A stretch of 30,666 nucleotides of DNA from a virus: positions 1 to 30,666 of the IMG/VR virus record IMGVR_UViG_3300009155_000169; one strand, given 5' to 3'. The notes below the pieces were generated by a model. That model did not search any database. It was not told the DNA's origin and saw only the letters and a list, made by a program, of their open reading frames with translations. Both the position numbers and the translations under genes were made by a program. This document shows positions 2,758-27,700 of the stretch, in pieces (positions within the stretch are counted from its first letter, which is position 1; every line of letters begins with the position of its first letter).

Positions 2758-2987
2758 AAGCTCCGCAGCAGTCCCTGAAAGATTGGGGCGACCAGAAATG
2801 GCGCACCAAGTCTGGTAAACCGTCGAGTAAGACGGGGGAGCGGTACTTGCCTGAAGCGGCTATCAAATCTCTCAGCCCTAGTGAGTACGCAGCAACAACC
2901 AAGGCCAAGAGAGCAGGTAAAGCCAGTGGAAAACAGTTTGTAGCACAGCCTAAAAGCATAGCAAAGAAAACAGCAGGATTTAGATAA
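2754..2987 (+). CDS. Small basic phage protein, TTG start (77 aa)
   Basis: The only start consistent with the conserved length is TTG at 2754, overlapping the previous stop as ATTGA. No early ATG exists in this frame. The product contains 'SLKDWGDQKWRTKSGKPSSK', 'GERYLPEAAIKSLSPSEYAA' and a Lys-rich end ('KSIAKKTAGFR'). This looks like a companion of the previous protein; both types occur side by side in other phages, to my recollection. High Lys and Arg with conserved Trp/Tyr suggest a compact nucleic-acid-associated protein. Function unknown. Its stop overlaps the next ATG by one base (TAATG). Confidence 0.75.
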   Translation: MKAPQQSLKDWGDQKWRTKSGKPSSKTGERYLPEAAIKSLSPSEYAATTKAKRAGKASGKQFVAQPKSIAKKTAGFR

Positions 2988-3904
2988 TGACTACTTCGGG
3001 CGTTGCTAACTTTGACATGGACTTGAGTGAAGTCATAGAAGACGCATTTGAACGTGCGGGTTCTGAGCTTCGCTCTGGCTATGACATGCGTACTGCACGG
3101 CGATCCCTGAACATCATGTTTGCGGATTGGGCCAACCGGGGCATCAACATGTGGACAATTGAGCAGGGATCATTCACCCTGACTCAAGGTTTAAACACCT
3201 ACGCGCTACCAACAGACACCGTAGACTTGCTTGAGCATGTCATCCGCACCGATGCCAACTCGACATCCAACCAAGCAGACTTGACCATCACCCGCATCAG
3301 CATCAGTACCTACGCTACGTTACCCAACAAGCTAACCCAAGCCAGACCCATTCAAGTCATGGTGCAGCGCAACTCTGGGCAGACATCAGCCACAACGCTG
3401 ACCTTGAACGGAGCAGTGACCGCGACAGCCACCACCATCACCCTGAGTTCAGTCATAGGACTAGCCGCTGCTGGGTACATTCAAGTGGACAGCGAGATCA
3501 TCTACTACGGCTACATCGTGGGCAATGTCCTGACAGCCTGCTCCAGAGGACAAGCCAATACCACCGCAGCAACGCATACAAGCACCACAGCGGTGTATGT
3601 ATCAAACCCGCCTGCAATTACCGTCTGGCCCACGCCTGATGGTTCCCAGACCTACACCTTTGTGTACTGGCGTCTGCGTAGGAACCAGAACGCTGGAGAT
3701 GGATCTGACACGATGGATGTGCCGTTCAGGTTTATACCTTGCGTGGCAGCGGGGCTGGCCTACTACTTGGCGCTTAAGTTGCCCAACGGCATGGAGCGTT
3801 TACAGGTATTGAAGATGCAATATGATGAAGCGTGGCAGTTGGCTCAAGATGAAGACCGGGAGAAAGCAGCGGTGCGCTTTGTGCCTCGCCAGCAGTTTAT
3901 GTAA
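2987..3904 (+). CDS. Head-to-tail adaptor / tail tube A-like protein (305 aa)
   Basis: The N-terminus (residues about 10-60) has 'DLSEVIEDAFERAGSELRSG', then 'ARRSLNIMFADWANRGINMW', and a following beta segment 'TYALPTDTVDLLEHVI'. This is the pattern of podovirus adaptor proteins (T7 gp11 / P22 gp4-type helical bundle that docks on the portal). The C-terminus ('MDVPFRFIPCVAAGLAYYLA', then a charged helix) completes the bundle. Between about residues 133 and 205 there is an inserted Thr/Ala-rich beta module with 'VDSEIIYYGYIVGN' and 'SRGQANTTAATH', a type found as a plug-in domain in other phage proteins. The product would connect portal to nozzle. The start overlaps the previous stop by one base, with AGGA upstream. 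Confidence 0.75.
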   Translation: MTTSGVANFDMDLSEVIEDAFERAGSELRSGYDMRTARRSLNIMFADWANRGINMWTIEQGSFTLTQGLNTYALPTDTVDLLEHVIRTDANSTSNQADLTITRISISTYATLPNKLTQARPIQVMVQRNSGQTSATTLTLNGAVTATATTITLSSVIGLAAAGYIQVDSEIIYYGYIVGNVLTACSRGQANTTAATHTSTTAVYVSNPPAITVWPTPDGSQTYTFVYWRLRRNQNAGDGSDTMDVPFRFIPCVAAGLAYYLALKLPNGMERLQVLKMQYDEAWQLAQDEDREKAAVRFVPRQQFM

Positions 3905-3906
3905 TC

Positions 3907-4290
3907 ATGGGCAATAGGTTTGCATCAGGTAAGAATGCGATAGCGGAGTGTGACCGCTGTGGGTTTCGCTACAAGTTGAAGGAATTGAAGAAGGAAGTTG
4001 TCAAGACCAAAACCTACAACTTGCTGGTGTGCCCAACCTGCTGGACACCGGATCAGCCTCAGTTGCAGTTGGGGATGTACCCGGTAGATGACCCACAGGG
4101 CTTGCGTGATCCGCGCAGGGACTTGAGTTATTACGCTTCTGGCCTGCTGGCAGACGGGTATCCGGGCGAAGGCAGCAGGATATTTCAGTGGAACTGGAAC
4201 CCGGTAGGCGGGTCTAGGGCAAACGATGACGGACTGACACCCAACTATTTGGTGGCAGAATTAGAACTTGGTTCAGTTACAGTAACTTAG
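3907..4290 (+). CDS. Zinc-ribbon phage structural-module protein (127 aa)
   Basis: Cys15-x2-Cys18 and Cys42-x2-Cys45 (CDRCGFRYK and CPTCW) form a four-cysteine zinc ribbon. The rest is short and polar: 'PQLQLGMYPVDDPQGLRDPR' then 'IFQWNWNPVGGSR'. The ribbon is small for an enzyme, so a structural or assembly role, perhaps as a head-tail or tail accessory protein, is more likely; DNA binding is the alternative. It lies two bases after adaptor 1 and before two small basic genes. This combination of zinc ribbon with adaptor is familiar from environmental podoviruses, but I cannot name a characterised relative. Confidence 0.8.
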   Translation: MGNRFASGKNAIAECDRCGFRYKLKELKKEVVKTKTYNLLVCPTCWTPDQPQLQLGMYPVDDPQGLRDPRRDLSYYASGLLADGYPGEGSRIFQWNWNPVGGSRANDDGLTPNYLVAELELGSVTVT

Positions 4291-4488: not shown

Positions 4489-4725
4489 ATGATCAACAAC
4501 AAACAAGCAGCGGCCTACGCAAAGCCGCACACCATGTCTGGCAAGGCCGTGACGGTCGAAGCCAACCCCGGCAAGGGCAAGGACATGAGCATGTTGAACA
4601 ATGCCCGTGCTTCGATTGGACGCATTACCAGCCAAGAGCAACCCGGTGTAAAGACATCTGGTATCGTCACCCGTGGTAACGGCGCGGCGACAAAAGGCAT
4701 TACCGCACGAGGCCCGATGGCATGA
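4489..4725 (+). CDS. Small basic protein (78 aa), function unknown
   Basis: I choose the ATG at 4489 because GGAGG (4479-4483) lies five bases upstream; the GTG at 4477 would place the ribosome site inside the gene. The product begins MINNKQAAAYAKPHTM and is rich in Gly, Ala, Lys and Thr ('GKGKDMSMLNNARASIGRI', 'GNGAATKGITARGPMA'). No hydrophobic core or motif is recognised. Its stop overlaps the start of adaptor 2 as ATGA, so it is translated with the tail genes. It could be an assembly or scaffolding-type factor, but nothing in the sequence shows it. Confidence 0.65.
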   Translation: MINNKQAAAYAKPHTMSGKAVTVEANPGKGKDMSMLNNARASIGRITSQEQPGVKTSGIVTRGNGAATKGITARGPMA

Positions 4726-5375
4726 ACTACGCTGCGTTGGTTGCTGCAATTTCTTCGTACACGGAGAACACCTTCCCTACGGTGGATATGAACTTGTTCA
4801 TTACACAGGCAGAGAAGCGCATCTACAACGCCGTACAGATACCATCCCTACGCAAGAACGTCACGGGCAGCACAACTACAAGCAACAAGTATTTGCAGTG
4901 CCCCCTTGACTTTCTATCCACATTCTCCTTGGCAATAATAGACCCCACCACAGGTGCGTACACGTACCTGCTCAACAAGGATGTGAACTTCATCAGGGAA
5001 GCGTACCCCAAGCCAACATCCACTGGAGCGCCTAAGTACTATGCCATATTTGGCCCACGTTCGGACAACGAAACAGAACTGACGTTCATCCTTGGCCCCA
5101 CACCCAACGCCGCATACGGCACTGAGCTTCACTACTTCTACTATCCTGAGTCTATCGTCACTGCATCGACCACATGGCTTGGTGACAACTACGACCCTGC
5201 TCTTCTGTATGGGACACTGGTCGAAGCCTACACCTACATGAAGGGTGAGCAGGACATGGTGCTGCTGTACAACACCAAGTTTGGCGAGGCTCTAGTGCAG
5301 CTTAAACGTCTGGGCGATGGGCTTGAGCGGTCTGACGCATACCGCAGTGGGCAAGCTAGGATTCCAGTAACATGA
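4722..5375 (+). CDS. SU10-type phage adaptor protein (217 aa)
   Basis: The N-terminus 'NTFPTVDMNLFITQAEKRIY' followed by 'NAVQIPSLRKN' is the hallmark of the adaptor family seen in phage SU10 and related podoviruses: a helix that carries the 'AE.RIY..' signature and then a beta domain. Later parts ('FGPRSDNETELTFILGPTPN', 'YFYYPESIV') match its beta barrel, and the C-terminus ends in helices ('LLYGTLVEAYTYMKGEQDMV'). Family assignment is from memory and pattern. It would sit in the neck between portal and nozzle. With the adaptor at 2987 this makes two adaptor-like proteins in one operon. The ATG overlaps the previous stop (ATGA). Confidence 0.8.
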   Translation: MNYAALVAAISSYTENTFPTVDMNLFITQAEKRIYNAVQIPSLRKNVTGSTTTSNKYLQCPLDFLSTFSLAIIDPTTGAYTYLLNKDVNFIREAYPKPTSTGAPKYYAIFGPRSDNETELTFILGPTPNAAYGTELHYFYYPESIVTASTTWLGDNYDPALLYGTLVEAYTYMKGEQDMVLLYNTKFGEALVQLKRLGDGLERSDAYRSGQARIPVT

Positions 5376-5788
5376 GCATTGCCCAAACCCTGACCACATC
5401 CTTCAAGCAGCAACTGCTTCAGGGGGTGCACGACTTCTCCGCAGACACCTTCTACATGGCGCTGTACACAGCCAATGCCGATATAGGGGCGGCTACCACC
5501 GTTTACACAGCGACCGGGGAGATTACAGGCACGGGCTACACCGCTACGGGTCAGGTGATGACAGGCATCTCGGTGAGTGTTACAGACACCACAGCCTTTG
5601 TAAACTTCAGCAATGTGGTCTGGACAACAGGTGCGTTTACAGCACGGGGTGCGCTGATCTACAATTCATCCAAGAGCAACAAATCGGTGGCAGTATTGGA
5701 CTTCGGCGCTGACAAAACCACTACCTCATCGTTCACCGTTGTAATGCCAACCAACTCATCCACCACCTCATTGATAAGGCTACCATGA
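5372..5788 (+). CDS. Small beta-rich tail or head structural protein (138 aa)
   Basis: It starts with an amphipathic segment 'LTTSFKQQLLQGVHDF', then 'TFYMALYTANADIG', and has regular beta strands with Thr/Gly turns, ending 'SSTTSLIRLP'. The element 'ARGALIYNSSKSNKSVAVLD' is a strongly conserved piece of a small structural family common in environmental podo- and siphoviruses. No catalytic motif or membrane segment is visible. It is ATGA-coupled to both neighbours. Its likely place is the tail or baseplate-equivalent surface, inferred from the neighbouring genes. Confidence 0.75.
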   Translation: MSIAQTLTTSFKQQLLQGVHDFSADTFYMALYTANADIGAATTVYTATGEITGTGYTATGQVMTGISVSVTDTTAFVNFSNVVWTTGAFTARGALIYNSSKSNKSVAVLDFGADKTTTSSFTVVMPTNSSTTSLIRLP

Positions 5789-6363
5789 CTACCGAAAAAC
5801 TTAAAGCTACTGACACTGTTTCTAGCGGCCTGACCTGCAACCTCAAAGCCGGTGAGGATGCACAGGCCACTGGCCTATTTGAGATTAAGTGCCATGACAA
5901 AGATGGCAACTTGAAGTGGGAAGCGCAGTCTAAAAATCTGGTAGTCAATGCCGGTCTGGCGTACATGGCGGGTTCGGCCCTAACTTCAGTCACGCAAATC
6001 ACCACTTGGTATCTTGGTTTGTACGGTGCTGGAGCAAGTAACACCCCTGCGGCGGGTGACACCATGTCTTCCCACGCTGGTTGGACAGAGGTTGTGGCTT
6101 ACAGTAATGCGACCCGTGTAGCCGCTACGTTTGTAACAGCAACCACTGCCAATCCCTCTGTAGTGACTAATACAGCTTCTCCTGCTACGTTTAACATCAA
6201 CGGCACAACAACTGTGGGCGGGGCTTTCCTGACCAGCGGCAGCGCCAAGAGTGGTACGACAGGCACACTGTTTTCTGCGGCTGACTTTGGCTCACCCGGT
6301 GATCGCTCTGTGGTGAGCAGTGATACTCTGTCTGTGACCTACACATTCAGCTTGGCGGGGTAG
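5785..6363 (+). CDS. Beta-rich phage structural protein (192 aa)
   Basis: The N-terminus has 'FEIKCHDKDGNLKWEAQSKN' then 'LVVNAGLAYMAG', the opening of a widespread phage structural family in which a short head strand is followed by 'WYLGLYGA..NTPAAGDTM' and 'HAGWTEVVAYS'. The C-terminal half has 'NINGTTTVGGAFLTSG' and ends in a strand 'DTLSVTYTFSLAG'. These proteins are probably tail- or capsid-surface parts; no function is established to my knowledge. It is ATGA-coupled to its predecessor, and the next gene begins one base after its stop. Confidence 0.75.
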   Translation: MTTEKLKATDTVSSGLTCNLKAGEDAQATGLFEIKCHDKDGNLKWEAQSKNLVVNAGLAYMAGSALTSVTQITTWYLGLYGAGASNTPAAGDTMSSHAGWTEVVAYSNATRVAATFVTATTANPSVVTNTASPATFNINGTTTVGGAFLTSGSAKSGTTGTLFSAADFGSPGDRSVVSSDTLSVTYTFSLAG

Positions 6364-6364
6364 T

Positions 6365-7381
6365 ATGTCAGCGTGGGGTTCTGGCGCATGGGGTAATGGC
6401 GGCTGGGGCTTCACGGCTTTTTCAAGCACGGTTGGTGAGACTGCAACAGGCACAGATGCTGTATTAGGGGCTAATAGAGTAGGAGTTTCAGTCAGTGAGA
6501 CTGCCACAGGCTCAGATGCAATCAGTGCGTTGGCTACTTTTGGTAGTGCGGTATCGGAAACAGCGACAGGTACGGATGTAATAAGTTCTCTGCCAACGTA
6601 TGGAGTTTCTGTCAGCGAGACAGCTACGGGTACAGATGTAGTTAGTTCGTTGCTGACAATGAGTCCATCGGTTGTTGAGAGCGCAACAGGTACGGATGCG
6701 GTAGCGGCGGCAATCAGTGTTAATTCTTCGGTTAGTGAGACTGCCACGGGAACGGACGCTGTATCAAGTTTGGTACAGGTCAATGCAGCAGTCAGTGAAA
6801 CAGGTACGGGTACAGACGTTGTTGTAGCAAAGGCAGGGTTTGGATCGGCGGTTAGTGAGTCGGGTACAGGTAGCGATGTAGTAACAGCAGTACCGACATA
6901 CAAAGTGTCAGTCAGCGAAACTGCTACGGGGTCTGATGTAGATGTGGCGTTTGTCACCTTCTTGGGGCGGATCACAGAAACAGCGACAGGTACAGATGCG
7001 GTAACTTCGTCTTTTTCGTTCTCGGGCACTGTCAATGAGTCGGCTACCGGGACGGATGCGGTATCAAGTATTTTGTCTGTTGGAGCGACTGTCAGTGAGA
7101 CAGCCACTGGGTCTGATGCGGTTACAACAGCGGCAAGTTTTGGTGCATCGGTTGCAGAGACAGCAACGGGCACTGATGTAGATACGGCAGCAGCGGCGTT
7201 TATAGCATCTCTCAACGAGTTGGCAACCGGAACAGACGCAATAACGGGACGACCATTCTGGGAAGTAATAGATGACACGCAGAATGCAAACTGGCAGAAT
7301 ATTGGTAACACGCAAACAGCCAATTGGCAAGATATTGGCAACACGCAGACAGCAGCTTGGACTGATGTTGCAACGACTTAG
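6365..7381 (+). CDS. Virion protein of fourteen 20-residue repeats (338 aa)
   Basis: The protein has four parts. Residues 1-22 carry a Trp-Gly motif (MSAWGSGAWGNGGWG). Residues 23-302 are fourteen consecutive units of exactly 20 residues with consensus V-S-E-T-A-T-G-T-D-A/V-V-S-S then a variable end often finishing F-G-x-S. Two Asp residues follow, and then three 11-residue units close the protein (TQNANWQNIGN, TQTANWQDIGN, TQTAAWTDVAT). The regular period suggests a stack of beta hairpins or a fibrous rod. It lies between a structural gene and the tail fibre, so an extended tail appendage or fibre-linked decoration is likely. The synonymous codons of the conserved core differ from unit to unit. 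Function unproven. Confidence 0.8.
   Translation: MSAWGSGAWGNGGWGFTAFSSTVGETATGTDAVLGANRVGVSVSETATGSDAISALATFGSAVSETATGTDVISSLPTYGVSVSETATGTDVVSSLLTMSPSVVESATGTDAVAAAISVNSSVSETATGTDAVSSLVQVNAAVSETGTGTDVVVAKAGFGSAVSESGTGSDVVTAVPTYKVSVSETATGSDVDVAFVTFLGRITETATGTDAVTSSFSFSGTVNESATGTDAVSSILSVGATVSETATGSDAVTTAASFGASVAETATGTDVDTAAAAFIASLNELATGTDAITGRPFWEVIDDTQNANWQNIGNTQTANWQDIGNTQTAAWTDVATT
6431..7270 (+). repeat. Fourteen 60-nt coding repeats
   Basis: Each unit encodes 20 residues; the conserved core E-T/S-A/G-T-G-T/S-D keeps its place in all fourteen. At DNA level the units are clearly diverged: Thr, Ala, Gly and Val codons change freely, so identity is higher at protein level than at nucleotide level. 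Confidence 0.9.
7277..7375 (+). repeat. Three 33-nt coding repeats (TQxAxW)
   Basis: Three adjacent units of 11 codons encode T-Q-N/T-A-N/A-W-Q/T-N/D-I/V at the C-terminus of the repeat protein. Confidence 0.85.
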
Positions 7382-7391
7382 GAGTATTTAA

Positions 7392-9791
7392 ATGGCAGCA
7401 ACGACGACTCTTTTGGGCTTAGTCACCCCCACACAGGGGACGCTCACTGGTACGTGGGGCGATACCGTCAACTACGGCGTCAGTGACTATCTTGACATTG
7501 CCATTGCTGGCACATTATCTTTTGCGGGTGATGGCGCTATTACATTGGCTAACACCACGGGTAGTTCGTCAGGAAATTCCATAGGCGCTACCACGGCGCA
7601 GTATGCGATCATCAAGGTTACAGGCACACTGACAACCGCCAAAATAATCACAGGCCCAAGCTACAGCAAAACGTATTTCGTAGTCAACGCCGCCACAGGC
7701 AGCACAGTGACGTTCAAAGCATCTGGTCAGACCGGCGTATCTATCGCTGTAGGCGAGACAGCACTTGTTTACTACAACGGCACAGACTACGTAAAGGTTG
7801 TCGGTACGGCTACGGCTGGCGCGGCGGGTGGCTCGACCACTCAGGTGCAGTACAACAATGCTGGCGTACTGGCAGGGATTACAGGCGCTACAACCAACGG
7901 CACAACACTGACCCTTGTTGCTCCCATTCTGGGAAGCCCATTCAGCGTGGGAACCATGCCAGCCTTTACGCTTGGCGGCACAGTCTCAGGCGGCGGCAAT
8001 CAAATTAACAACGTAGTTATTGGCACAACGACTCCGCTGGCGGGTGCGTTTACTACGCTGAGTGCAACGGGCACACTAAGCGGCGGCACAAGCGGCACAG
8101 CGTACAGCTTCTCAGGCAGTGCGCCAGCGACCAGCTTGACGCTGGATAGCAGCGGTAACTTGGGTGTTGGGACGAGTTCGCCTTCTAGTTTTGATCCTTT
8201 TGCAAATAATCTAGTTGTAGGAACTGGTTCTGGCTCAGAAGGAATTACTATTTACGCAGGTAGTGCCAACTCCAGTACCCTTAGTTTTGCTGACGGCACT
8301 GGCCCAGCAGCATATCAAGGCTATATTCAATACAGCCATGCAACTGATGCGTTAGGTTTTTATGTAAATTATTCAGGCAGTCCTAGCGCCCGAATGACAA
8401 TTGATTCCAGCGGTAACTTGGGCTTGGGGGTTGCTCCGAGTGCTTGGAGTAGCGCAAGCAGACCCGCATTGCAATTAACAAATGGTGCGGCTTTGTTTAG
8501 TCGTAGTGCGGCTACCGCTTTAAGCCAAAACCTTTTTTACAATAGCAGTGATGCTAGTGCATATATTGCAAATGGTTACGCTACTTTGTATTATCAAACT
8601 AGCGGCCAACATCAATGGTATACAGCACCAAGTAACTCATCTGGTGCAGGAGCAACACCTATTTCCTTCACCCAAGCAATGACGCTGGATGCAAGCGGTA
8701 ACTTGGGTATTGGGACAAGTTCGTTTTCTGCAAGATTTAATGCAAACTTAGATAACGCAACTGCTTATGCCAACACTGCTCCAAACGTAGCAAACTGCAC
8801 GGCGGCATTTACAAATGGGTCTGCTCACACTGCTGGCGGCACATTTGTGGGTTATCAACTAAACATAAGCGGCAACTCACAAAACCGAATTGGCTACTTT
8901 GGTGCAATCAGCGAATCCACAAGCAACCAAGGTTTGGCCCTTGTTTTTGGAACCAACACGACTGCTGGCGACAGAAGCGAAAAGATGCGCCTCGACTCCA
9001 GCGGTAACTTGGGTATTGGGACGACAACTATTACCAGTGGTGCTGGGTGGACTCCAAGACTTGTTTTGGCTGATGCTACTTCTCCTGCACTGATTGTTAG
9101 AGGGCCTAATTCTCAAGAGGGTTCTGTTGGCGTAATTAATGGAATGTTTATTGATAGTTTAGGGAATACAACTGGAACAAACAATAATATTATTTTTAGA
9201 AATACCTCCACAAACTCCAGTTTTACAGCAATAGAACGGATGCGCATCGACTCCAGCGGTAACTTGCTGGTGGGGACTACGGATGCGTCTGGAACTGCTG
9301 GTATTGGTTTCAAATTTCTTCCGTCTGCAACATATTCAAGAACAAGCCAAGTAGGTTCTACTACTTCAAATTCTGACACAACTCACGAGGTTTATTCAAC
9401 TGGTGCATCCGCTTATCGTTTCTATGTTGGATATGGCGGTACTGTCTTTGCCACTTCAATTGTAATTACTGCAATTTCTGACGAGCGCCTTAAAGAAAAT
9501 GTGCGTGACATTGATACGGGCCTTTCTTCAATCATGGCCCTTAAACCAAGGCGTTTTGATTGGAAAGAAGGCAAAGGCCAAGACAAGAAAGATGTTGCTG
9601 GTTTTATTGCTCAAGAGTTTGAAGATGTGTTTCCTGAGTGTGTCAACACATCAAAAGCTGGTGCAGATGGTATTGAGTACAAAAACATCAACCACGAAAC
9701 ATTGATTCCCACTCTTGTCAAAGCCATCCAAGAACAACAAGCCCTCATCACTCAACTCACCGCCCGTATCACTGCACTGGAGACAGCATGA
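7392..9791 (+). CDS. Tail fibre/spike with S74 intramolecular chaperone (799 aa)
   Basis: A TAGGAG ribosome site precedes the ATG. The N-terminus ('LVTPTQGTLTGTWGDTVNYG', then a beta domain with 'GETALVYYNGTDYVKVVG') is a typical phage fibre attachment region. The middle carries five 'DxSGNLGxG' modules, separating variable receptor-facing segments. From residue 695, I-S-D-E-R-L-K-E-N-V starts the Peptidase_S74 / endosialidase chaperone domain (about 104 residues), with 'FDWKEG', 'VAGFIAQEFEDVFPECV' and a final coiled coil. In this family the chaperone folds a trimer and then cuts itself off before the Ser; here that residue is Ser696 with Lys in RLKEN. The product is the best candidate for the receptor-binding protein. 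It has no clear enzymatic active site otherwise. Confidence 0.88.
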   Translation: MAATTTLLGLVTPTQGTLTGTWGDTVNYGVSDYLDIAIAGTLSFAGDGAITLANTTGSSSGNSIGATTAQYAIIKVTGTLTTAKIITGPSYSKTYFVVNAATGSTVTFKASGQTGVSIAVGETALVYYNGTDYVKVVGTATAGAAGGSTTQVQYNNAGVLAGITGATTNGTTLTLVAPILGSPFSVGTMPAFTLGGTVSGGGNQINNVVIGTTTPLAGAFTTLSATGTLSGGTSGTAYSFSGSAPATSLTLDSSGNLGVGTSSPSSFDPFANNLVVGTGSGSEGITIYAGSANSSTLSFADGTGPAAYQGYIQYSHATDALGFYVNYSGSPSARMTIDSSGNLGLGVAPSAWSSASRPALQLTNGAALFSRSAATALSQNLFYNSSDASAYIANGYATLYYQTSGQHQWYTAPSNSSGAGATPISFTQAMTLDASGNLGIGTSSFSARFNANLDNATAYANTAPNVANCTAAFTNGSAHTAGGTFVGYQLNISGNSQNRIGYFGAISESTSNQGLALVFGTNTTAGDRSEKMRLDSSGNLGIGTTTITSGAGWTPRLVLADATSPALIVRGPNSQEGSVGVINGMFIDSLGNTTGTNNNIIFRNTSTNSSFTAIERMRIDSSGNLLVGTTDASGTAGIGFKFLPSATYSRTSQVGSTTSNSDTTHEVYSTGASAYRFYVGYGGTVFATSIVITAISDERLKENVRDIDTGLSSIMALKPRRFDWKEGKGQDKKDVAGFIAQEFEDVFPECVNTSKAGADGIEYKNINHETLIPTLVKAIQEQQALITQLTARITALETA
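8151..9266 (+). repeat. Five dispersed copies of AGCGGTAACTTG inside the tail fibre gene
   Basis: The identical 12-mer starts at 8151, 8409, 8694, 9000 and 9255, spaced by 258, 285, 306 and 255 bases, always in frame. It encodes the SGNL part of the D-x-S-G-N-L-G/L-x-G modules. Flanking bases (GGGTATTGGGAC and similar) are also largely conserved, whereas the segments in between are unrelated to each other. Confidence 0.9.
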
Positions 9792-12237: not shown

Positions 12238-14334
12238 ATGCCGTTGAAAAAAATTACCTTAAAAAGCGGGGTGAATCGTGAAAACACTAGATACACGAAC
12301 GAGGGCGGCTACTATGAGTCGGATAACGTCCGGTTTCGGCAAGGCACGCCTGAAAAGATAGGCGGTTGGGTACGCATCTCTGCTGCCACATTCCAAGGGG
12401 TTTGCCGGTCTCTGTGGAACTGGGTCACCTTCGGCTTCCAAAACCTCATTGGGGTTGGCACAAACCTCAAGTTCTACATACTCAACGGCGGCGCTTACAA
12501 CGACATCACGCCCACGCAGACCGTCCACACACTAAGCGGCCCGTTTGCCACAGTCAACGGCTCTGCTGCGGTCACGGTCACGGACGCCACTGTCAGCTAT
12601 GCCAACAACGATTTTGTGGTGTTCACAGGTGCTACAGCCGTGGGTGGGCTGACCATATCCGGGGAGTACCAGATAACATACTCAACTGGCTCAACCTACA
12701 CCATCACCGCTTCATCAGCGGCAACGTCCACAGCTTCAGGCGGTGGGACAGTCTATGCTGTGTACCAAGTCAATACCGGGCCATCCTTTGCTGCACCGCT
12801 GGTAGGCTGGGGCGCAGGGCCGTGGGGTTTTGGTGCTTGGGGGGTAGGCCAATCTTCCTCTGACGCTATGCGGATATGGAACCAATTTAACTTTGGTGAA
12901 GACTTGCTGTACGGCCCAAGGGGTGGGCCTCTGTACTACTGGGACGCCACTGTTGGCTACCAAGCAAGCACCATCACCATGACAATTGCCAACCCCTGCG
13001 TTGTCACCACCACACTGAATCTGCCTGATCTGACAGCCATCGTTCTTGAAACTTCCGGTGCATTGCCAACAGGCTTGCTGGTGGGCACAACCTACTACAC
13101 CCGGTATGTGTCGGCTACCACCTTTAACCTGTCGCTAACTCCCACAGGGGCGCTCATTATCTCCTCAGTCAGTCAGTCCGGGGTACACAAGATATCTGCA
13201 CGGGGGGTACTGGTATCACAGCTAAATGGGGCAAGTAGCGTTCCGCTAACTCAAATAGCGTTCCTTGTCTCTGACGCCAGCCGTTTTGTGCTTTGCTTTG
13301 GGACAAATGACATTGGCTCAACGGTAGTCAATCCGCTCCTGATACGCTGGTCTGACCAAGAGAGTGTTACGGAGTGGTCACCGTCAATCACCAATCAGGC
13401 AGGCAGCATTGGCTTGTCCCACGGCTCTACCATTGTGACGGCTATTCAAAGCAAGCAAGAGATTGTGGTGTTTACAGATGCGGCTCTGTACTCTCTCCAG
13501 TACCTTGGCCCACCCTATGTTTGGGGATCACAACTGCTTGCAGACAACACCTCTATTGCTGGCCCCAATGCGGTGGCCTTGGCTGCGGGGATTATTTACT
13601 GGATGGGCGTAGACAAGTTCTACAAGTACGATGGGCGGCTGCAAACCCTCAACTGTGACCTACTCAGGTATGTCTATAACGACATTGCAAGAGATCAGTT
13701 TGATCAAGTTTATGCAGCCACCAATGAAGGTTTTAATGAAGTATGGTGGTTCTACCCCAGTGAGGGGTCGTCAACCAACGACAGCTATGTAGTCTTCAAC
13801 TACCTTGAGAATGTCTGGTACTACGGCACTATGGCACGAACCGCATGGTTGGACAGTGGCCTTCAAGACTACCCGGTTGCAGCCACATACAGCAGCAACC
13901 TTGTCCAGCATGAACTGGGTGTGGATGACGGCACAGCAGCCACGGCTCTTCCAATCACGGCATTCATCACCTCATCCCAGTTTGACATTGGCGATGGGCA
14001 CAACTTTGCTTTTGTCTGGAGGATGCTGCCTGACCTGACTTTCAACGGCTCCACCGCCGGGACGACACCTAGCCTGACCATGCAACTCCTGCCGCTACAG
14101 AACTCTGGCTCTGGGTATAACAGCCCCAAGTCAGTCGGTGGAGACAGCAGCAGCGCAGAGGGCACAGTCACAGCCACCCAGACCTATCCGATTGACCTAG
14201 ACACCTACAACGGGCAGTTAAACATCCGGGTCAGGGCACGGCAAATGTCTATGAAGATCAGTTCAAACACCCTTGGCACACAGTGGCAGATGGGCGCTCC
14301 AAGAATTGACATCCGTCAAGACGGACGCAGGTAA
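12238..14334 (+). CDS. Podovirus nozzle / tail hub-like protein (698 aa)
   Basis: The start 'KITLKSGVNRENTRYTNEGG' followed by 'YYESDNVRFRQGTPEKIGGW' and 'FQGVCRSLWNWVT' is the signature of a family found after the adaptors in SU10/T7-like tail gene sets. The length and beta-rich composition fit a nozzle (T7 gp12-like beta propeller with insertions). Residues about 93-180 are an inserted beta module ('ATAVGGLTISGEYQITYS'), and at about 190-203 there is a Trp-Gly loop, WGAGPWGFGAWG. The C-terminal half has 'DKFYKYDGRLQTLNCDLLRY' and 'ARDQFDQVYAATNEGFNEVW', typical propeller blades. It would form the tail tip that channels DNA and carries fibres. Confidence 0.82.
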   Translation: MPLKKITLKSGVNRENTRYTNEGGYYESDNVRFRQGTPEKIGGWVRISAATFQGVCRSLWNWVTFGFQNLIGVGTNLKFYILNGGAYNDITPTQTVHTLSGPFATVNGSAAVTVTDATVSYANNDFVVFTGATAVGGLTISGEYQITYSTGSTYTITASSAATSTASGGGTVYAVYQVNTGPSFAAPLVGWGAGPWGFGAWGVGQSSSDAMRIWNQFNFGEDLLYGPRGGPLYYWDATVGYQASTITMTIANPCVVTTTLNLPDLTAIVLETSGALPTGLLVGTTYYTRYVSATTFNLSLTPTGALIISSVSQSGVHKISARGVLVSQLNGASSVPLTQIAFLVSDASRFVLCFGTNDIGSTVVNPLLIRWSDQESVTEWSPSITNQAGSIGLSHGSTIVTAIQSKQEIVVFTDAALYSLQYLGPPYVWGSQLLADNTSIAGPNAVALAAGIIYWMGVDKFYKYDGRLQTLNCDLLRYVYNDIARDQFDQVYAATNEGFNEVWWFYPSEGSSTNDSYVVFNYLENVWYYGTMARTAWLDSGLQDYPVAATYSSNLVQHELGVDDGTAATALPITAFITSSQFDIGDGHNFAFVWRMLPDLTFNGSTAGTTPSLTMQLLPLQNSGSGYNSPKSVGGDSSSAEGTVTATQTYPIDLDTYNGQLNIRVRARQMSMKISSNTLGTQWQMGAPRIDIRQDGRR

Positions 14335-19186: not shown

Positions 19187-21697
19187 ATGTTTGATGATCG
19201 AATTGGTAACCTGCAAAAGATGCTGGCTAGGATGGGGCCAGAAGGCAGGCAGAGATACGCCGCAGAACATTCAGATGATCCTATTGCGGTGTCAATGGCG
19301 TTGTTTGTAAACAACATTGCCAAAGAAATTACACAAGGCAAACGGGGTGAGCCTGAGATGCAGGCCCCGGTAGTTCAGCAGGCTATTCAAGCCATGAACC
19401 AGCCAAGGATGCCACAGGGTATGCCGCCACAAGGTATGCCCCTACAGGGGCAGCCACAAGCACCGCAGCAGCAAGCACCGCAAGGTATGCCACCCCAAAT
19501 GGCAGCAAACGGTGGCTACATGGACTCTCAACTGCCCGAAGAAATGGGCATAGGCGCTTTACCCGAACGCAGCCTGTCTAACATGGCTGATGGTGGGATC
19601 GTTGGGTTTGCTAAAGGCGGAGATTCTGGGCCGGGAACAACAGCAGACTATCGTAGATACGCGCTTACACAAGCAGCAAAAATGGGGCTTGATCCACAGT
19701 TTGTGGACAGCATTTTTTCGCACGAGTCTAGAACCAAAGCGTACCCCACTGGGTATGATCCTAATGCCGCTTCAGGAAGTGGTTCTGTTGGTATTGGGCA
19801 GTTAATATCAGCAACGGGCAAAGCCTACGGGGTAGCACCAGAAGAACGCACAAACCCTATCAAAAATATAGACGCATCGTTGCGGTTTATGAAAGATTTA
19901 CAGAAAAAATATAATAATGATCCTCGTTTAATGGCGGTAGCGTACAACCAAGGAGAAACGGTATTAAATAACCACCTAAAGAAAAATGACGGTGTGTTAG
20001 TTCCCGATAATTTAAGAAAAGAGATAGCTGAAAGTCTAACCAAAAAAGGCAACCTTACACCAGAACAAGTAGCACAACGGGCCGTTGAACCTGTAAACTA
20101 CCTCAAACGAACCGTAGATAAACCCAAAGACACAACCAATCCTTTTGGCGGTACAACAGCAGACAAAATAAGAAAAACTCTGCTTCCTCCAATAGATATC
20201 AAACCAATTTCTGAAGTGCCTCGGGGTATTGTTCAAGGTTTGGCTTCACAAATTGCTGGTCTTGCTGGGAATGTTGCTGGCGCAGTTATGCCGGGGAAAG
20301 AAGGGCAAGGTGCCGATTATGCAAAACGCGCTGAACAATATGTAGGCAATATAGCAGGCGGTTCCAGCCCAACTTCAGAAGCAAGTAAGGGAATACTAGA
20401 TGCTCTTGGGTATTTGCCAAATAAATTCTCAGAATATGTATCAAAACCCGTTGGAGAAGCAATAGACAAGGCTACAGGTTCAGTCACTGCTGGAGATATA
20501 GCAACAAGAATTTCAGATTTTTTGCCAGCGCTTATACCTGTTGGTCGCAAAGGAAAAACACCATTAAAAACCGCAGAAGCAGCACCTGTACCCGCACCAG
20601 CACCAGCACCAGCACCAACACCAGCGGCAGCACCACCAAAAGCCGCACCAACGCCTGCACCCGCACCCGCACCTGCACCTGCACCCGCACCCGCACCCGC
20701 TCCAGCGGCAGCACCCGCTCCAGCGGCAGCACCAAAAACAATTGTTCCTACACCTCCACCTGTCGTTACCGGTGGTATACCCACCCTACTTCCTGAAGCA
20801 GCAAAACTTAAAGCAGAAGCCGTTGCTAGAGCAGACTTTAGAGCGGCAGAAAGAGCGAAGGCAACCGCAGAAAAACCCGTTGTAGTAGCAGAAAAACCAG
20901 TTGTAGTTGAACCTGCAGCAGTAGCAGCCGCAGAAGCAGCAAAAGCGGCAGAAGCAGCAAAAGCAGCAGAAGCGGCAAAAGCAGATGCACAGGTAGCCGC
21001 AGGATCTATGGCAGCGTTACAAGAACGACCAGCACCATTAAAATTTCCTACTCCTTCACTTGTAGGTGCGGGGGCAGTGGGAGCAGGTGCAGCAGGTGCA
21101 GCAGCAACTGAAGGGGCTAGTAGCGCACCAGAACCTACGGCATCTTGGGACAAACAAATCACAGACCGTGATTTTGCGGATGTTCCAAACCCAGTTAAAA
21201 AAGAAGCTGTGGCAGAGGCTACCAAAGCAATCATGGCAAGCCCAGAACCAGATCGCCTAAAAGGGTTTGGTTACGAAGACCTGATGATGTTTGGCCTGCA
21301 ACTGATGGCAGGCAAGTCGCAGTATGCGCTACAGAATGTGGGCGAAGCGGGTGTTGCTGCCCTAGCTTCTAAACAAGCAAGGGCAAAAGCCGCAGCCGAT
21401 GAGAAAAAAGAAGCGGCAATGGCTAAGTACTACGAGAAATATGGCAACTACCTTGAGTCAGAGGCTGGCCGTAAGGCTGAAGACGACAAGCCACTGGCTC
21501 AGTTTCGTAAAGAACTTGCAACAGAGTTTTTAAAACTTGAAGCCAATCAAATGCTCAGTCTCGACCCCGTCAAGATGGCTGCAGCAAAACGGCAAGCTCG
21601 AGCAGAATTGCTTAATAGTTACCCAGAGCTTATGGGTACAATGGGCGGTGCTGGTGGCAAAACTGGCAATCCACTGGTGGATAAATATTTACAATAG
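19187..21697 (+). CDS. Virion lytic transglycosylase with Pro-Ala linker, ejection protein 3 (836 aa)
   Basis: Residues about 155-290 are an SLT-like lysozyme fold: Glu180 in FSHES, GSVGIGQL at 199-206 and AVAYNQGE at 250-257, the three classical motifs of lytic transglycosylases. This would cut the wall during DNA entry. Before it lies a Met/Pro/Gln-rich region (MPPQGMPLQGQPQ) and the motif ADGGIVGFAKGG near 140. After it come a Pro-Ala linker (residues about 466-524), a Glu-Ala-Ala-Lys helical repeat near 580-605, and a conserved C-terminal domain (FGYEDLMMFGLQLMAGKSQY, then a charged helix). Start is supported by GGAATC just before the ATG. The linker may let the domain reach the wall from the tail. 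Confidence 0.8.
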   Translation: MFDDRIGNLQKMLARMGPEGRQRYAAEHSDDPIAVSMALFVNNIAKEITQGKRGEPEMQAPVVQQAIQAMNQPRMPQGMPPQGMPLQGQPQAPQQQAPQGMPPQMAANGGYMDSQLPEEMGIGALPERSLSNMADGGIVGFAKGGDSGPGTTADYRRYALTQAAKMGLDPQFVDSIFSHESRTKAYPTGYDPNAASGSGSVGIGQLISATGKAYGVAPEERTNPIKNIDASLRFMKDLQKKYNNDPRLMAVAYNQGETVLNNHLKKNDGVLVPDNLRKEIAESLTKKGNLTPEQVAQRAVEPVNYLKRTVDKPKDTTNPFGGTTADKIRKTLLPPIDIKPISEVPRGIVQGLASQIAGLAGNVAGAVMPGKEGQGADYAKRAEQYVGNIAGGSSPTSEASKGILDALGYLPNKFSEYVSKPVGEAIDKATGSVTAGDIATRISDFLPALIPVGRKGKTPLKTAEAAPVPAPAPAPAPTPAAAPPKAAPTPAPAPAPAPAPAPAPAPAAAPAPAAAPKTIVPTPPPVVTGGIPTLLPEAAKLKAEAVARADFRAAERAKATAEKPVVVAEKPVVVEPAAVAAAEAAKAAEAAKAAEAAKADAQVAAGSMAALQERPAPLKFPTPSLVGAGAVGAGAAGAAATEGASSAPEPTASWDKQITDRDFADVPNPVKKEAVAEATKAIMASPEPDRLKGFGYEDLMMFGLQLMAGKSQYALQNVGEAGVAALASKQARAKAAADEKKEAAMAKYYEKYGNYLESEAGRKAEDDKPLAQFRKELATEFLKLEANQMLSLDPVKMAAAKRQARAELLNSYPELMGTMGGAGGKTGNPLVDKYLQ
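20581..20735 (+). repeat. Pro-Ala coding repeat
   Basis: Hexamer-type units GCACCN/GCACCC encode A-P-A-P strings with a few Ala and Thr breaks, forming the long linker of the transglycosylase gene. The units vary at third positions. Confidence 0.85.
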
Positions 21698-21706
21698 GTG
21701 CAGTTT

Positions 21707-24700
21707 ATGGAACTTGAGCAAGTCCTCACAGCGTTGCGCAATGCAGATGCAGCGGGTAATGTAGAGGATGCGAGACAGTTAGCCAGAATTGCACAGCAGC
21801 TAATGGCTGCACAACCCCCCGAGGAAGCCCCCAAACCAAAAACTGGGATTGGCGCTGCTATAGGCAAAGGCGTTGAGTCCCTCATCTCCAGCGGACGCAC
21901 AGCCCTTGGTGCTGCTACCGGGGATGCCGAAGCGGCAGCACGCGCAGGACTTGAGCGCGGCGAGGCGATGGGCAAGAAGTACGCTGATCAAGTCAGCTTG
22001 CAGAAAGTCAAAGACGCATACAACAAAGACGGCGTGCTGTCTGCGGCAGGCGAAGCGTTAAGTCAAATCCCAGCGGCACTTGCAGAACAAGCACCTAACC
22101 TAGCTGCAATGGCAGGTAGTGCGCGACTCGGGGCGACAGCGGGTAGTGTTCTTGGCCCTGTTGGGGCAACCGTTGGCGGCATTGGCGGGGCGCTGCTACC
22201 GTCTCTGATACAGCAGTTCAGCGGGAATGTTGAGCGGCAAGCGCAAGAAGGCGTTCCCGTAAATGCAGGGCGTGCCCTAGCCGCCGCCGTTCCTCAAGCT
22301 GGTTTGGACGTAGCAGGTTCGCTAATCCCGTTTGGTGGCAGGCTGGTGCAGAAGTTGACCGGCATCCCTATGGGAGCGCTGCTGGGTCGCAGTGCCGAGG
22401 GTGCAGCCAAGCTGGCTGATGAGCGGTTGCTGACGGTGCTTGCCAAAGGCGTGGGCGTTGGTGCGCTGGCCGAGATTCCCACGGAAATCACCCAGCAGAT
22501 GCTGGAGCGTGCACAGGCGGGGCTGTCGCTCTCAAGTCCTGATGCGCTCAGAGAGTACGGCGAGACTGCGTATCAGGTAGGGCTGTTGGCTCCACTTGGT
22601 GCAGTGGGCCGGTTGTCAGAGCGTGGCGGTGCACGAGCACAGGTTGAGCAGAAAGCACAAGAAGAAGCCACCAAGGCTGCTGAAGTTCAGCAACAGCAAG
22701 CCGCTGTTGCAGCGCAGCAAAAGGCGACAGACGATGCTGATCCCAACTACGCAGAAAAGTTGCGGAAGGACTACGTTGCTGCCAACGTCGAGATGCAGCG
22801 GCTCAATGATGCAGTCAGGGCGCTCAGTGCCGCGAAAGACCCGCTGTCCGTAGCAGACGCCAAGGATGCGCGTGTAGCCCGGGATGCGTACGCCAAAGAA
22901 ACCATGCAGCCGCTGGTGAACGAGATTCGCCGTGTACGCCAGCTACACCCCGGGGTTGACTTCCGTCCCCCCGCTGCCGTTGCGCCTGCCGTTGCGGCTG
23001 CTGAGCCTACCGTTGCGCCTGTTGAACCTATGGCGGTTCAGCCTGCGGTTGCTGAGCCTGTGGTCACCACTACGCCAATGCCCGAGGCAACGACTGCGCC
23101 CCTACCTAAAGCCCAAACTGTTGAAGGCACGGTGTCTGCGCCAGTGGATGAGGTTACTCCCCCAGTTCCCGCAGTTCCCCCAGAGGTTGCCGAGACCGAA
23201 GTTGAGCCGGTCAAAAAGCCACGTGCCAAGAAAGCCGTTGCAGAAGCTCCGGTAGTTAAAGCTCCGGTAGTTAAAGCTCCGGTAGTTGAAGCTCCGGTAG
23301 TTGAAGCTCCGGTAGTTGAAGATACCACGGTCGAACCAACGGAACCCAAAACGCTTGAGCAGGCATTTGCCACAACGCAAAAGCCCAAAGAAATCCCGGT
23401 GGGAAGCCAGTACATGATCCCCGGTGCAGCGCAGCTTAACCGAACACGTGCAGTGCAGACGCAAGAGCTAACGCAAGAAATTCGGACAGAACTGACGCAG
23501 CTTAGCAAAAATCTTACTGTAGCGCGACAAGAGGGGCGTAAGGGGGATGCGCTAGAAATTATTGCTCGGATGCGCTACCTGCAAGACCAAGGGCGTGCAG
23601 CCAGCGTTCGTCCTGTTTGGGAGGGCGCAGCGGGTACGAAGGAAAGTGAAACGATAGAAAAACAACCGGCAGAGCGGACATCTCCCCGAGCACTGCAGCA
23701 AGACATTGAACGTGCACAGGCGTTGCCAAATCTGTCGGACACCAACGCCAAGTTACTGGACAAACTGCAACAGAATCTGCCAGCGCTGCTTCAATACAAA
23801 GCGCCTACAACGGGGCGAATCCCCGGCTTGGAAACCGTCCCTGCCGTGCCAGAAGCTGCGCGTGGCGCAGGCGATACGAGGGTGCGGATTGTTGACTTTC
23901 TTGACAGCCTGAGACAGGGCCTACCCGCTGAGACAGAAGCGCGTAACCTGCAGCAGCAACTTGCTCAGATCGAACGCCAAGCACAGCAAGAAGTTTCCCC
24001 CCGTGAGTTGCAAGGCATGCTGGCAAAAGTCAGTAAGCCAAAAAGTTCAGCAACTGCAACTCGTGATGTGTATGCAGCACCACTAGCAGAAAGAACGCAA
24101 GCTTCTTATAGAAAATTTAAAGCGCCAGAAAAAGCTGCGCTTGATAACACCGCAGAACTTTCTCGAAATGAGCGAGGACTGCTACGGCTTGTCGGAGAAA
24201 ACCAAGCCGCCATCATGGCCGATCCAGCAGCGCGGATGACCGTAGCTCGGTGGCTGTCGTCAGATGTTGGGCAGGGTATTGGAGATGCAACTCAGGATTT
24301 GCGGAAGTATTTTGGCGTTGCTGAAAAGGCGGCTCCAGCAGCACAAGAGGACATGTTCCCGGCGGAGCGCGAGCAAGAGGTTCGACGCGAAGAGACGCGA
24401 GGTATGTACGAGGACTTGTTTAGCGAGCAGAAACCCACTGTGGCCGAAACCCGCGCTGAGAAACAAAAAGAATCCAGTAAAGAACGCAAGCTGACCGGCG
24501 ACCTAAGTGCGTTGCCTGGAAAACAAATTTCTTTTGAGCGCCGCCGCGCTATGCTGGCTGCTATTGACGAAGCTCCGCTTAAGCGGCAGGCGTTTGAAGA
24601 CGCAATCAATGATGCTAACCTGTCACAGGAAGAGCGGGATGTTGCACGGACGCAGCTTACCACGTACCTTGTAAAACTTCGTAAGAGGGCGGAGAACAAG

Positions 24701-27700
24701 GATGCAAGCTACGCAACAGCGTACCGCCTTCGCGGTGAAGAGTCTCAAAAAACTCAAGACTTGAAAAAGAAATTGGAAGCCCCGGGGCTTACGGACGCCA
24801 AGCGCAAGGGGTTGCAAACCCGTTTCCGCAAAGCACAAGACCAACTCAACAAACGCGACGAACAGCTTGCACGCTTGCGCGGCGTAGAGATTGAAGCCGT
24901 TGAAACACCCGAGCAGCGGTCGCAAACGCTTGATACGTTATTCCGCGAGACTTACGGGCAGGCGGTTTCTGAAGAGCAACAAGTTGAGCTAAATAAAACC
25001 AAAGGTCGGGCGTTGGGGGCCGTGGCACGTAAAGAGGTTTTCCCCGCCACAGTGTTTTACTCAGGCGAAGAAGGTGGCGTTAAAGAAACTGAGAAGCGCA
25101 CGTATACAAGACCGGATATGCGGTTAACTGAAACGCGCGGGGTCAAACAACGGGATGTACAGATCAGCAAAGCTGAGATGGAATCTTCTAATAAGTTACA
25201 GCAACAAAAAAAAGAAGCATTTGACGCACGTGCACAAGAACAGCAGCTTTTTGAAATTGCTCAAAAGAAAGTTGAGGATTTGAGCGCTAAGCTAACAAAT
25301 ATCAAAGAGCGTGTTGCTGCAGTTGGAAGGTTAGACCCCAGAACTCGAAAACAAACGCTTGTTGATAGTCTGAATGTGGAGCAGACGCGTATCACAGCCG
25401 AATTATCTGCAGCCAAAACCGATGCCGCGCAGGCTGCACCCAAGACCGGGACAATTAGTCAGAAATCTGAGGGTGAGATATACGGCGGTGAATTTGAAGG
25501 AAAGATGCGCGGTACTTCCGGGCCGAATGACACGCCGCTGTCTGCAAAGAATGTAGATCTGCTGGGCGGCAATAAGCTGGCAGCGGTACTTACCAACATC
25601 TCAGAGAAAAGCAGCAACCATGTTGCACGCCGCATAGCGGGTAAATTAGCCGCCGTTGTTGAAGTCAATGGTGTCAACGTCAAGCTGGTGGAAGTGACGG
25701 CGCAAGACAGCCCTGACGCTCCCGGGAGTACGTCTAGAGATGGCAACCGGGTTCGCATCAACGAGAACACCGGCCTGTCTGAAGAGACCGTGGTGCATGA
25801 GGCAGCGCACGCAGCCACCATGTTTGAGTTGGACAAGGCGGACGACAAACTTACTCCAAATCAACGCAAAGCCAAAGATGAGTTGAACCGCATGCGCGAC
25901 AGCGTTTTGGCCGATAAAGATTTTGACAACAAGGTTATAAAAGACGGCGACATCCACGAGTTTGTAGCCGAGGGTTTGGCAAGTCGGGCGGTGCAAACGT
26001 ACATGCGCGGCAAGCAGTGGGAGGGCCGCAGTCTGTGGCAACGGTTTAAAGATGGGCTACTGCGTTTGATAGGTGTTAACACACCCGCCAAAGGCCCCAT
26101 GCTAGACCGTTTCTTGGACTTGGCTGAGAATTTCATAGCAGCAAAAGCAGAGAACGCACCTTCGGTAGAGAAAACAAAACTCAGGTCAGTCGGCTCCTTG
26201 CTGTCCCCCAAAGACGTAAAGTATGCCAACCCGGGACTTGCTGCCGCAGGAGTCATCGGCGACACATTCATTGCCAAGGAGCGCGGTGTCATTGACAGGG
26301 TTCGCGCAGCATCGGGTGGTTGGCTGGGTGCGGAAACGCAGTTTGTAGATCGGTTTGCGCCACTGGAGCGGGTGTCCAAGGGAATGGAAGCGCTCAAGGG
26401 TTCGCAGATGATGTACTACCTGCGGATGTACGACCAGCGGATGAACTTCACCGCGCAGTCTGTTGCCAATGGGGCGATTCAGCGGGTTGCCAAACAACGC
26501 AAAGACGGGCGCACCGAGTACGTTGTTGAGAGCGTTGACGGAGCCAATATCCAGCAGGTTGTGGACATCCTGAAGAAGGCTCCCGCTGGCAGTCCAGACG
26601 CAGCCAACCGCTTGTTCACAATGTATCTGGCTGGCATCCGTGCCAAGAACAAGGGGTTCCAAACACTGCACTTTGGTGATGCATTGACAGAGGCGCAGCT
26701 TGACAGCGCTATGGCAAACATCCGCGCTACGCCCGGGCTGGAAGAGAATTTCAAGCAAGCCCGTGATGTGTACAACGAATACAACCGCAACATGGTCGGT
26801 TTTCTTGAACAGTCGGGGGCTATATCAAAAGCACACGCAGCGCGGCTAACCAAAGAGAACGACTACATCCCCTTCTACCGGGAACAGAACGGCGTAGCGC
26901 TGCTTACCATCGGCGGTGAGACCCCCATCCGGGTTGGTAGCATTGCTGAGCAGCCCTATTTGCACGAGTTGGTTGGCGGTGACCGTCCGATTCTGGATTT
27001 CCTGACAAGCTCGGTGCAGAACACGGCCTTGATTACGGACATGGGCCTGCGCAATCTGGCGACTAAGAACTCCATGAACGAGCTTGAGGACATGGGGTTA
27101 GCGCAGATTCGGCGAGGGCCGGGTACGGCAGACCCAAAAGTTGTTCGGTTCAAAATAGATGGGGATGACTACCACGCCATCGTGGACACCGACAAGGCTG
27201 GCGTTCCTGCTGATCTTTTGGTCAAAGGCATGCAGGGCATTCCAACACAATTCAATGTGCTTGTCCGGGCGTTGGGGTTCCCCGCTACGTTGCTGCGCAG
27301 GGCGGTCACGCTGAGCCCCACGTATGCGGCACGCCAGTTGTTCCGAGACTCATTGGCCGCTTCGCTTTTGTCTGGTGCGGATTTTGTTCCCGTGCTTGGT
27401 GCATTGAAAGAAATTAACATATTCGGCAAGCCTTCTGCTGCCAAATCAACGCTGGAGAAACGTGGCATTACAGGGGGGCAAATCTTTGCCGGTGGCAGCA
27501 GCAGCGAGGCCATGACCAAGATACTGAACGACATGATGTCAGGCAAAGGCAACTTGGGGCAACTCATATCCAAGGCCGAAGCGCTCAACATGGAGGCTGA
27601 TGCTGCCACCCGCCGCGCACAGTACAACAGCTACATCAAGCAAGGGCTGTCGGAGATGGAGGCCACGTTGATGTCCTTGGAGTCAATGAACTTTAACAAG

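Follow-up and report, generated by a model that had tools for sequence, protein, structure and literature searches.

Environmental genomes commonly encode phage fibres and rods made of short repeats but, to our knowledge, almost none of them is understood. The window analysed here, 30,666 bases of a lake or sea phage recorded in IMG/VR, carries a candidate for such a protein: an open reading frame at 6365–7381 (plus strand, ATG start) that encodes 338 amino acids, most of them in tandem repeats. A first-pass annotation proposed a spacer rod whose length could be tuned by copy number. Here, we ask what kind of protein this is and what governs its length.

The repeat gene is real and its product has three parts

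Compared with itself at a lag of 20 residues, the protein showed an identity of 0.443, against a maximum of 0.198 across all lags in 2000 shuffles, and at each lag from 40 to 120 (in steps of 20) the value was 0.37–0.40. Together with the anatomy of the reading frame, in which residues 21–300 form 14 gap-free units of 20 residues, this bears out the fourteen units of constant length described in the first-pass annotation. The motif E-T-A-T-G-T-D, reported there for every unit, proved less strict: Glu5, Thr8, Gly9 and Asp11 occur in 14 of 14 units, but the full string is only a consensus within the window array, with variants including ESATGTD, ETGTGTD, ESGTGSD and ELATGTD. The three T-Q-x-A-x-W units said to follow the array are present (TQNANW, TQTANW and TQTAAW), spaced by 11 residues. 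Two features had been missed, namely the change of copy number in fours among relatives, described below, and a W-G-rich N-terminal cap, whose residues W4, G5, G7, W9, G10, G13, W14 and G15 are invariant in 54 aligned sequences. The features of the locus are collected in Table 1.

Table 1. Features of the repeat gene and its surroundings, in window coordinates.
Feature	Position	Strand	Remarks
Head-tail adaptor (SU10_adaptor, PF24175)	4722..5375	+	E=2e-21
Small gene, 138 aa, PHROG 644 of unassigned function	5372..5788	+	also adjoins the sister-class repeat protein
Upstream partner gene, 192 aa, PHROG 8123 of unassigned function	5785..6363	+	73-99% identity in relatives
N-terminal W-G cap MSAWGSGAWGNGGWGFTAFS, residues 1-20	6365..6424	+	W-G-rich; pLDDT <50 in AF2
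14-unit array, residues 21-300	6425..7264	+	consensus x-S-V-S-E-T-A-T-G-T-D-A-V-x-S-x-x-T-F-x; AF2: two strands per unit
Four-unit block, approximately units 2-5, residues 41-120	6485..6724	+	missing from L002; breakpoint within unit 1/5
C-terminal W/Q tail with three 11-residue units, residues 299-338	7259..7378	+	
Tail fibre, S74 chaperone domain C-terminal (residues 696-751)	7392..9791	+	
Nozzle/stabilisation-type virion protein, PHROG 3287	12238..14334	+	

We regard the reading frame as a real gene because its dN/dS against the related contig L002 is ~0.27 and because the first IMG/VR scan sets yielded 170 distinct complete relatives. An antisense reading frame of 350 codons (6292–7344, minus strand), likewise periodic at 20 residues, was rejected as a gene; it is open by composition only, and 11 of 53 relatives keep it open over the greater part.

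The gene lies in a module resembling the tail-fibre module of SU10

The order adaptor, 5372 gene, 5785 gene, repeat gene and fibre is kept in nearly all related contigs that cover the region. The partner gene at 5785–6363 directly precedes the repeat gene in nearly all of them; in L076 a gap intervenes. In the tail fibre that follows, about 136 N-terminal residues are common to relatives and the remainder is swapped, and a DNA-ejection protein gene also lies downstream of this fibre in the window. In phage SU10, the fibre genes gp12 and gp13 are located between the adaptor gp11 and the nozzle gp17 (PMC9509320); the repeat gene likewise lies between an adaptor and a nozzle gene and beside a fibre gene. 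We consider the odds slightly in favour of its being part of the tail-fibre module of a short-tailed phage of the SU10 type and of its product being present in the virion, a judgement made jointly with the reading of the protein as a rod. The earlier remark on its place before a receptor-binding fibre stands as far as adjacency is concerned, since this is kept in relatives; however, the fibre is a separate gene, and the repeat protein is at most a putative in-line spacer.

Further observations concern other genes of the window. A second, weaker match to SU10_adaptor (E=1.8e-9) lies at 2987–3904. Distant relatives of the 5785–6363 gene occur in Methanosarcina virus MetMV, Acidovorax phage AP1 and a spring podovirus (L082, L083, L088), in each case without an adjoining ETATGTD protein. 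The gene at 19187–21697 encodes a transglycosylase (SLT) protein whose tandem repeats of low complexity lie at ~20580–20984, and that at 21698–28843 a giant protein of 2381 residues with an LPD38 domain, which is also found in polyvalent proteins thought to enter with phage DNA by injection.

Relatives share one plan and match no characterised family

The relatives share a modular plan in which an ETATGTD array is framed by a W-G-rich N-cap and by a W/Q tail of 18, 29, 40 or 62 residues. Among them, the unit spacing equals 20 in ~1900 of ~1980 cases; the chief other value, 38, corresponds to a further copy of the W-G cap that interrupts the array in L009:1453-2490, L072:4644-5921 and about 57 relatives. 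Further scans for diverse relatives added only six complete proteins, of which four have 10 units and the other two, from one lineage, have 11. We also noted a W/Q tail at L089:8001-8129; this contig was binned with an uncultured Armatimonadetes genome and may stem from a virus or prophage.

The first-pass annotation knew of no characterised fold with this consensus, and our searches agree with it. The window protein has no significant match in Pfam, PHROGs or NCBIfam and no meaningful one in the PDB, 54 members searched against PHROGs and Pfam gave isolated weak matches only, and whole-protein tblastn against named phages, in which low-complexity filtering may mask matches, returned none. PDB matches to the designed helical repeats DHR14 were ruled out as compositional similarity to helical targets. 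In literature searches we found no described family of such kind, and neither virion proteomics nor cryo-EM of a relative.

The array is predicted to fold into regular two-strand rungs

In an AF2 monomer model built with a 54-sequence alignment, each unit forms two strands and the units stack as a β-solenoid. The array reached a pLDDT of ~71 (mean of ten-residue blocks) with a pTM of 0.60, while cap and tail stayed below 50. AF2 is known to give unrealistic β-solenoids for perfect repeats (PMC11795689). As a control we folded the antisense frame of the array, which has an equal period, a comparable alignment (40 rows) and encodes no selected protein. It was far weaker, with an array pLDDT of ~46, a pTM of 0.37 and a best VIA-align Z of 6.9; thus, the sense model is not merely a product of periodicity, although, as a monomer model, it carries no more than moderate confidence. 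The monomer prediction called for by the first-pass annotation therefore speaks for the regular fold, one unit per rung, that it had expected, rather than for disorder. A search of structure databases with the model gave no Foldseek match at E ≤ 0.001. In VIA-align the top match was curli CsgA (8c50, Z 25.5, rmsd 8.5), followed by the Ca2+ β-helix 3p4g (Z 23.6, rmsd 2.6 Å over 264 residues), which is the best low-rmsd match.

A disordered low-complexity linker without defined rungs would be in keeping with the Thr/Ala/Ser/Gly-rich sequence and with the low pLDDT of cap and tail. We nevertheless consider it very improbable, given the exact unit length in nearly all spacings, the near-invariant Glu5 and Asp11, the alternating hydrophobic pattern and the purifying selection on the gene. 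A weightier alternative, which we take seriously while holding it to be the less probable case, is a homotrimeric fibre shaft of another β topology, in which Glu5 and Asp11 would line the trimer interface and the monomer solenoid would be an AF2 error. SU10 fibres are trimers (PMC9509320), the confidence of the model is only moderate, and the alternation of the consensus would place Glu5 buried with the hydrophobic face of a solenoid; internal Glu stacks are a warning sign in such models, to which 3p4g, with its calcium, is cited as an exception (PMC11795689). The antisense control argues against a solenoid produced by periodicity alone, and hence against this alternative.

Conserved acids suggest bound cations

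Among 1502 distinct units of the relatives, Glu5 is kept in 98.3% and Asp11 in 96.3%. The other conserved positions are V/I at 3, A at 7, G at 9, V/I at 13 and an aromatic or hydrophobic residue at 19, and a unit holds 0.23 K+R versus 2.6 D+E. Conserved acids that occur in pairs and lack basic partners suggest bound cations, and putative metal (Ca2+) binding at Glu5/Asp11 is plausible from the sequence.

A more specific proposal, a calcium-stabilised β-roll akin to the RTX-like region IV of the Marinomonas antifreeze adhesin MpAFP, in which the T-[AG]-T-G-[TS]-D turn would bind Ca2+ between rungs, appears doubtful to us. The near-invariant acids and the scarcity of K and R would fit it, as would the low-rmsd match of the AF2 model to 3p4g. 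The model also agrees, at moderate confidence, with the parallel β-solenoid of two strands per 19–21-residue rung of the RTX fold, but it comes from a method biased to that fold (PMC11795689). We found no sequence match to RTX families in Pfam, nor of the repeat profile to 3p4g in the PDB. The repeats are not of the GGxGxDxUx or xGTGNDxU type: only the T-G-x-D half of an RTX nonapeptide is similar, and Glu5 has no counterpart in the MpAFP consensus, xGTGNDxuxuGGxuxGxux, of 19–21 residues (PMC3492233).

Unit number changes mostly in steps of four

We parsed 163 arrays. Fourteen units were found in 76 of them, 10 in 67, 18 in five and six in one, which places 149 of the 163 at 6, 10, 14 or 18 units; the remaining 14 have 12, 15 or 19, L298 among them being probably 18 with an extra cap. 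Exceptional counts of 11, 12, 15 and 19 all occur among relatives. From cap to tail, the proteins span 125, 205 or 285 residues, or 224, 304 or 384 where there is a single internal cap. Arrays interrupted in this way carry 1, 5 or 9 units (10 in one case) in the first block and about 9 or 13 in the second, and the two blocks vary separately.

When changes in unit number were inferred on a tree built from the last nine units, 14 of 20 were of exactly four, whereas the 11-residue repeats of the tail changed on the same tree in steps of one (13) or two (8), one aberrant tail aside. If each step had a probability of 0.25 of being four, 14 of 20 would give P = 3e-5, a value that is indicative only, because changes subject to recombination are not independent and some branches of the tree are weak. 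A tree of the neighbouring gene also requires at least 17 changes among 10, 14 and 18 units. The comparison of unit number in related phages, suggested by the first-pass annotation, therefore confirms that copy number varies, but the tuning proceeds mostly in blocks of four and is not free.

Structure or history may underlie the four-unit step

We give similar weight to structure and to history as the cause of this step, with certainty for neither. A four-unit higher-order repeat was rejected as the cause, since neither protein nor DNA showed a peak at lag 4. Between units, identity in DNA hardly varies with lag (0.506, 0.501, 0.495, 0.504 and 0.506 at lags 1–5), so the substrate for recombination shows no preference for four; covariation between units showed no lag above the phylogenetic background.

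On the historical account, phages repeatedly swapped one ancestral four-unit cassette through recombination and an array of any length would be workable, which we judge a credible but minority explanation. A cassette LLTLS/SNGVG/VPIYV/SNGVG occupies units 2–5 in L236, L072 and L080, where it belongs to 18-unit arrays, and units 8–11 in L264 and L265. Block positions were taken from a residue-level alignment, in which L002, otherwise 91% identical to the window protein, lacks a four-unit block. Unit 2 of the window is identical at 19 of 20 residues to unit 2 of L003, and their DNA identity is 88% for unit 2 and 82% for unit 4; the window block may thus have come by recombination. With the cassette at two positions, this resemblance indicates that block exchange contributes to the pattern.

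Exchange of one cassette fits less well with other arrays. The blocks concerned differ, being units 2–5 in the window, approximately units 4–7 of L002 lost in L147, and first-block losses in L156, and the blocks beside an internal cap move separately in fours. Single-unit steps would be expected to be at least as easy, since similarity at lag 1 matches that at any other lag. That different blocks are all of four favours a structural reason. One particular form of it, which we offer tentatively and would not count as probable, is that the rod repeats itself, by superhelix or by symmetry, every four 20-residue units (for example, with a turn of 30 degrees per unit if it is a trimer); its ends would then stay in register only at lengths of 4k+2 units, and selection would remove the others.

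The protein as a probable rod with a proposed four-unit structural repeat

Most likely, the protein serves as a fibre or spacer rod in which four units form one structural repeat; we infer its metal, its oligomeric state and its location in the virion. To its full form, a virion rod of the tail-fibre module with a W-G cap, a β-repeat shaft and a W/Q tail, we assign a probability of about 0.55; the anatomy of the sequence, the gene context, the modular plan, the steps of four and the moderate AF2 model with its negative control are the observed parts of this reading, and presence in the virion, the spacer role, the oligomeric state and the physical meaning of four are its presumptive parts. The N-terminal cap would be the attachment end of the rod, each unit would supply one two-strand rung of a stiff shaft with its turn at T-G-T-D, and the W/Q tail would attach at the opposite end. 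Four units would probably make one structural repeat, for instance through a rotation bringing both ends back into register, and viable rods would then mostly have 4k+2 units.

A phage fibre or rod built of repeats is a known kind of protein; the four-unit length rule, with its exceptions, is unexpected. The steps hint at a hidden structural rule in building such rods, and natural length variants of one rod, mostly four units apart, are a ready test of which fibre lengths are allowed.

Comparison with known systems

The long tail fibre module of SU10 (gp12/gp13) resembles the present one in that its genes lie between adaptor and nozzle, but it differs in gene arrangement and in repeat anatomy, and a corresponding role of the window protein would be presumptive. 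Region IV of MpAFP from Marinomonas primoryensis (PDB 3p4g), an RTX-like β-helix, can be likened to the AF2 model as a solenoid of 19–21-residue repeats with a G-T-G-N-D turn. However, MpAFP is a cell-surface adhesin to which we found no sequence homology, and binding of Ca2+ or ice by the window protein would be hypothetical.

Roseobacter phage CRP-902 gp53 (WED25149.1, a hypothetical protein), with repeats of the G-V-A-G-T-G-A-V-G type, also adjoins a tail adaptor and has a W-G motif. Unlike in the window protein, this motif is C-terminal, the N-terminus belongs to PHROG 28581, and ETATGTD units are absent. The same PHROG is matched by the window gene at 3907–4290 and by the N-terminus of the CRP-902 repeat protein (L086:5964-6890), so the module may be fused in CRP-902.

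A further parallel is a sister class represented by WJZ48131.1 of phage DSL-LC04, annotated as a hypothetical protein, which occupies the equivalent place and has about 115 IMG/VR relatives. W-G caps are present in 50 of 80 loci of this class, the W/Q tail in 70, a neighbour of the 5372 type in 56 and the adaptor in 49; the window protein itself combines a W-G cap, a W-x-x-I-x-x-[ST]-Q tail and the 5372-type neighbour. The central units, in contrast, are of the V-T-G-V-Q-A-T-G-x-V-G type, ~22 residues long and without the E/D pair. Shared caps, tail and neighbours around a different central repeat point to an architecture of cap, exchangeable β-repeat and tail, by which hundreds of 'hypothetical' phage proteins could be annotated as one architectural class.
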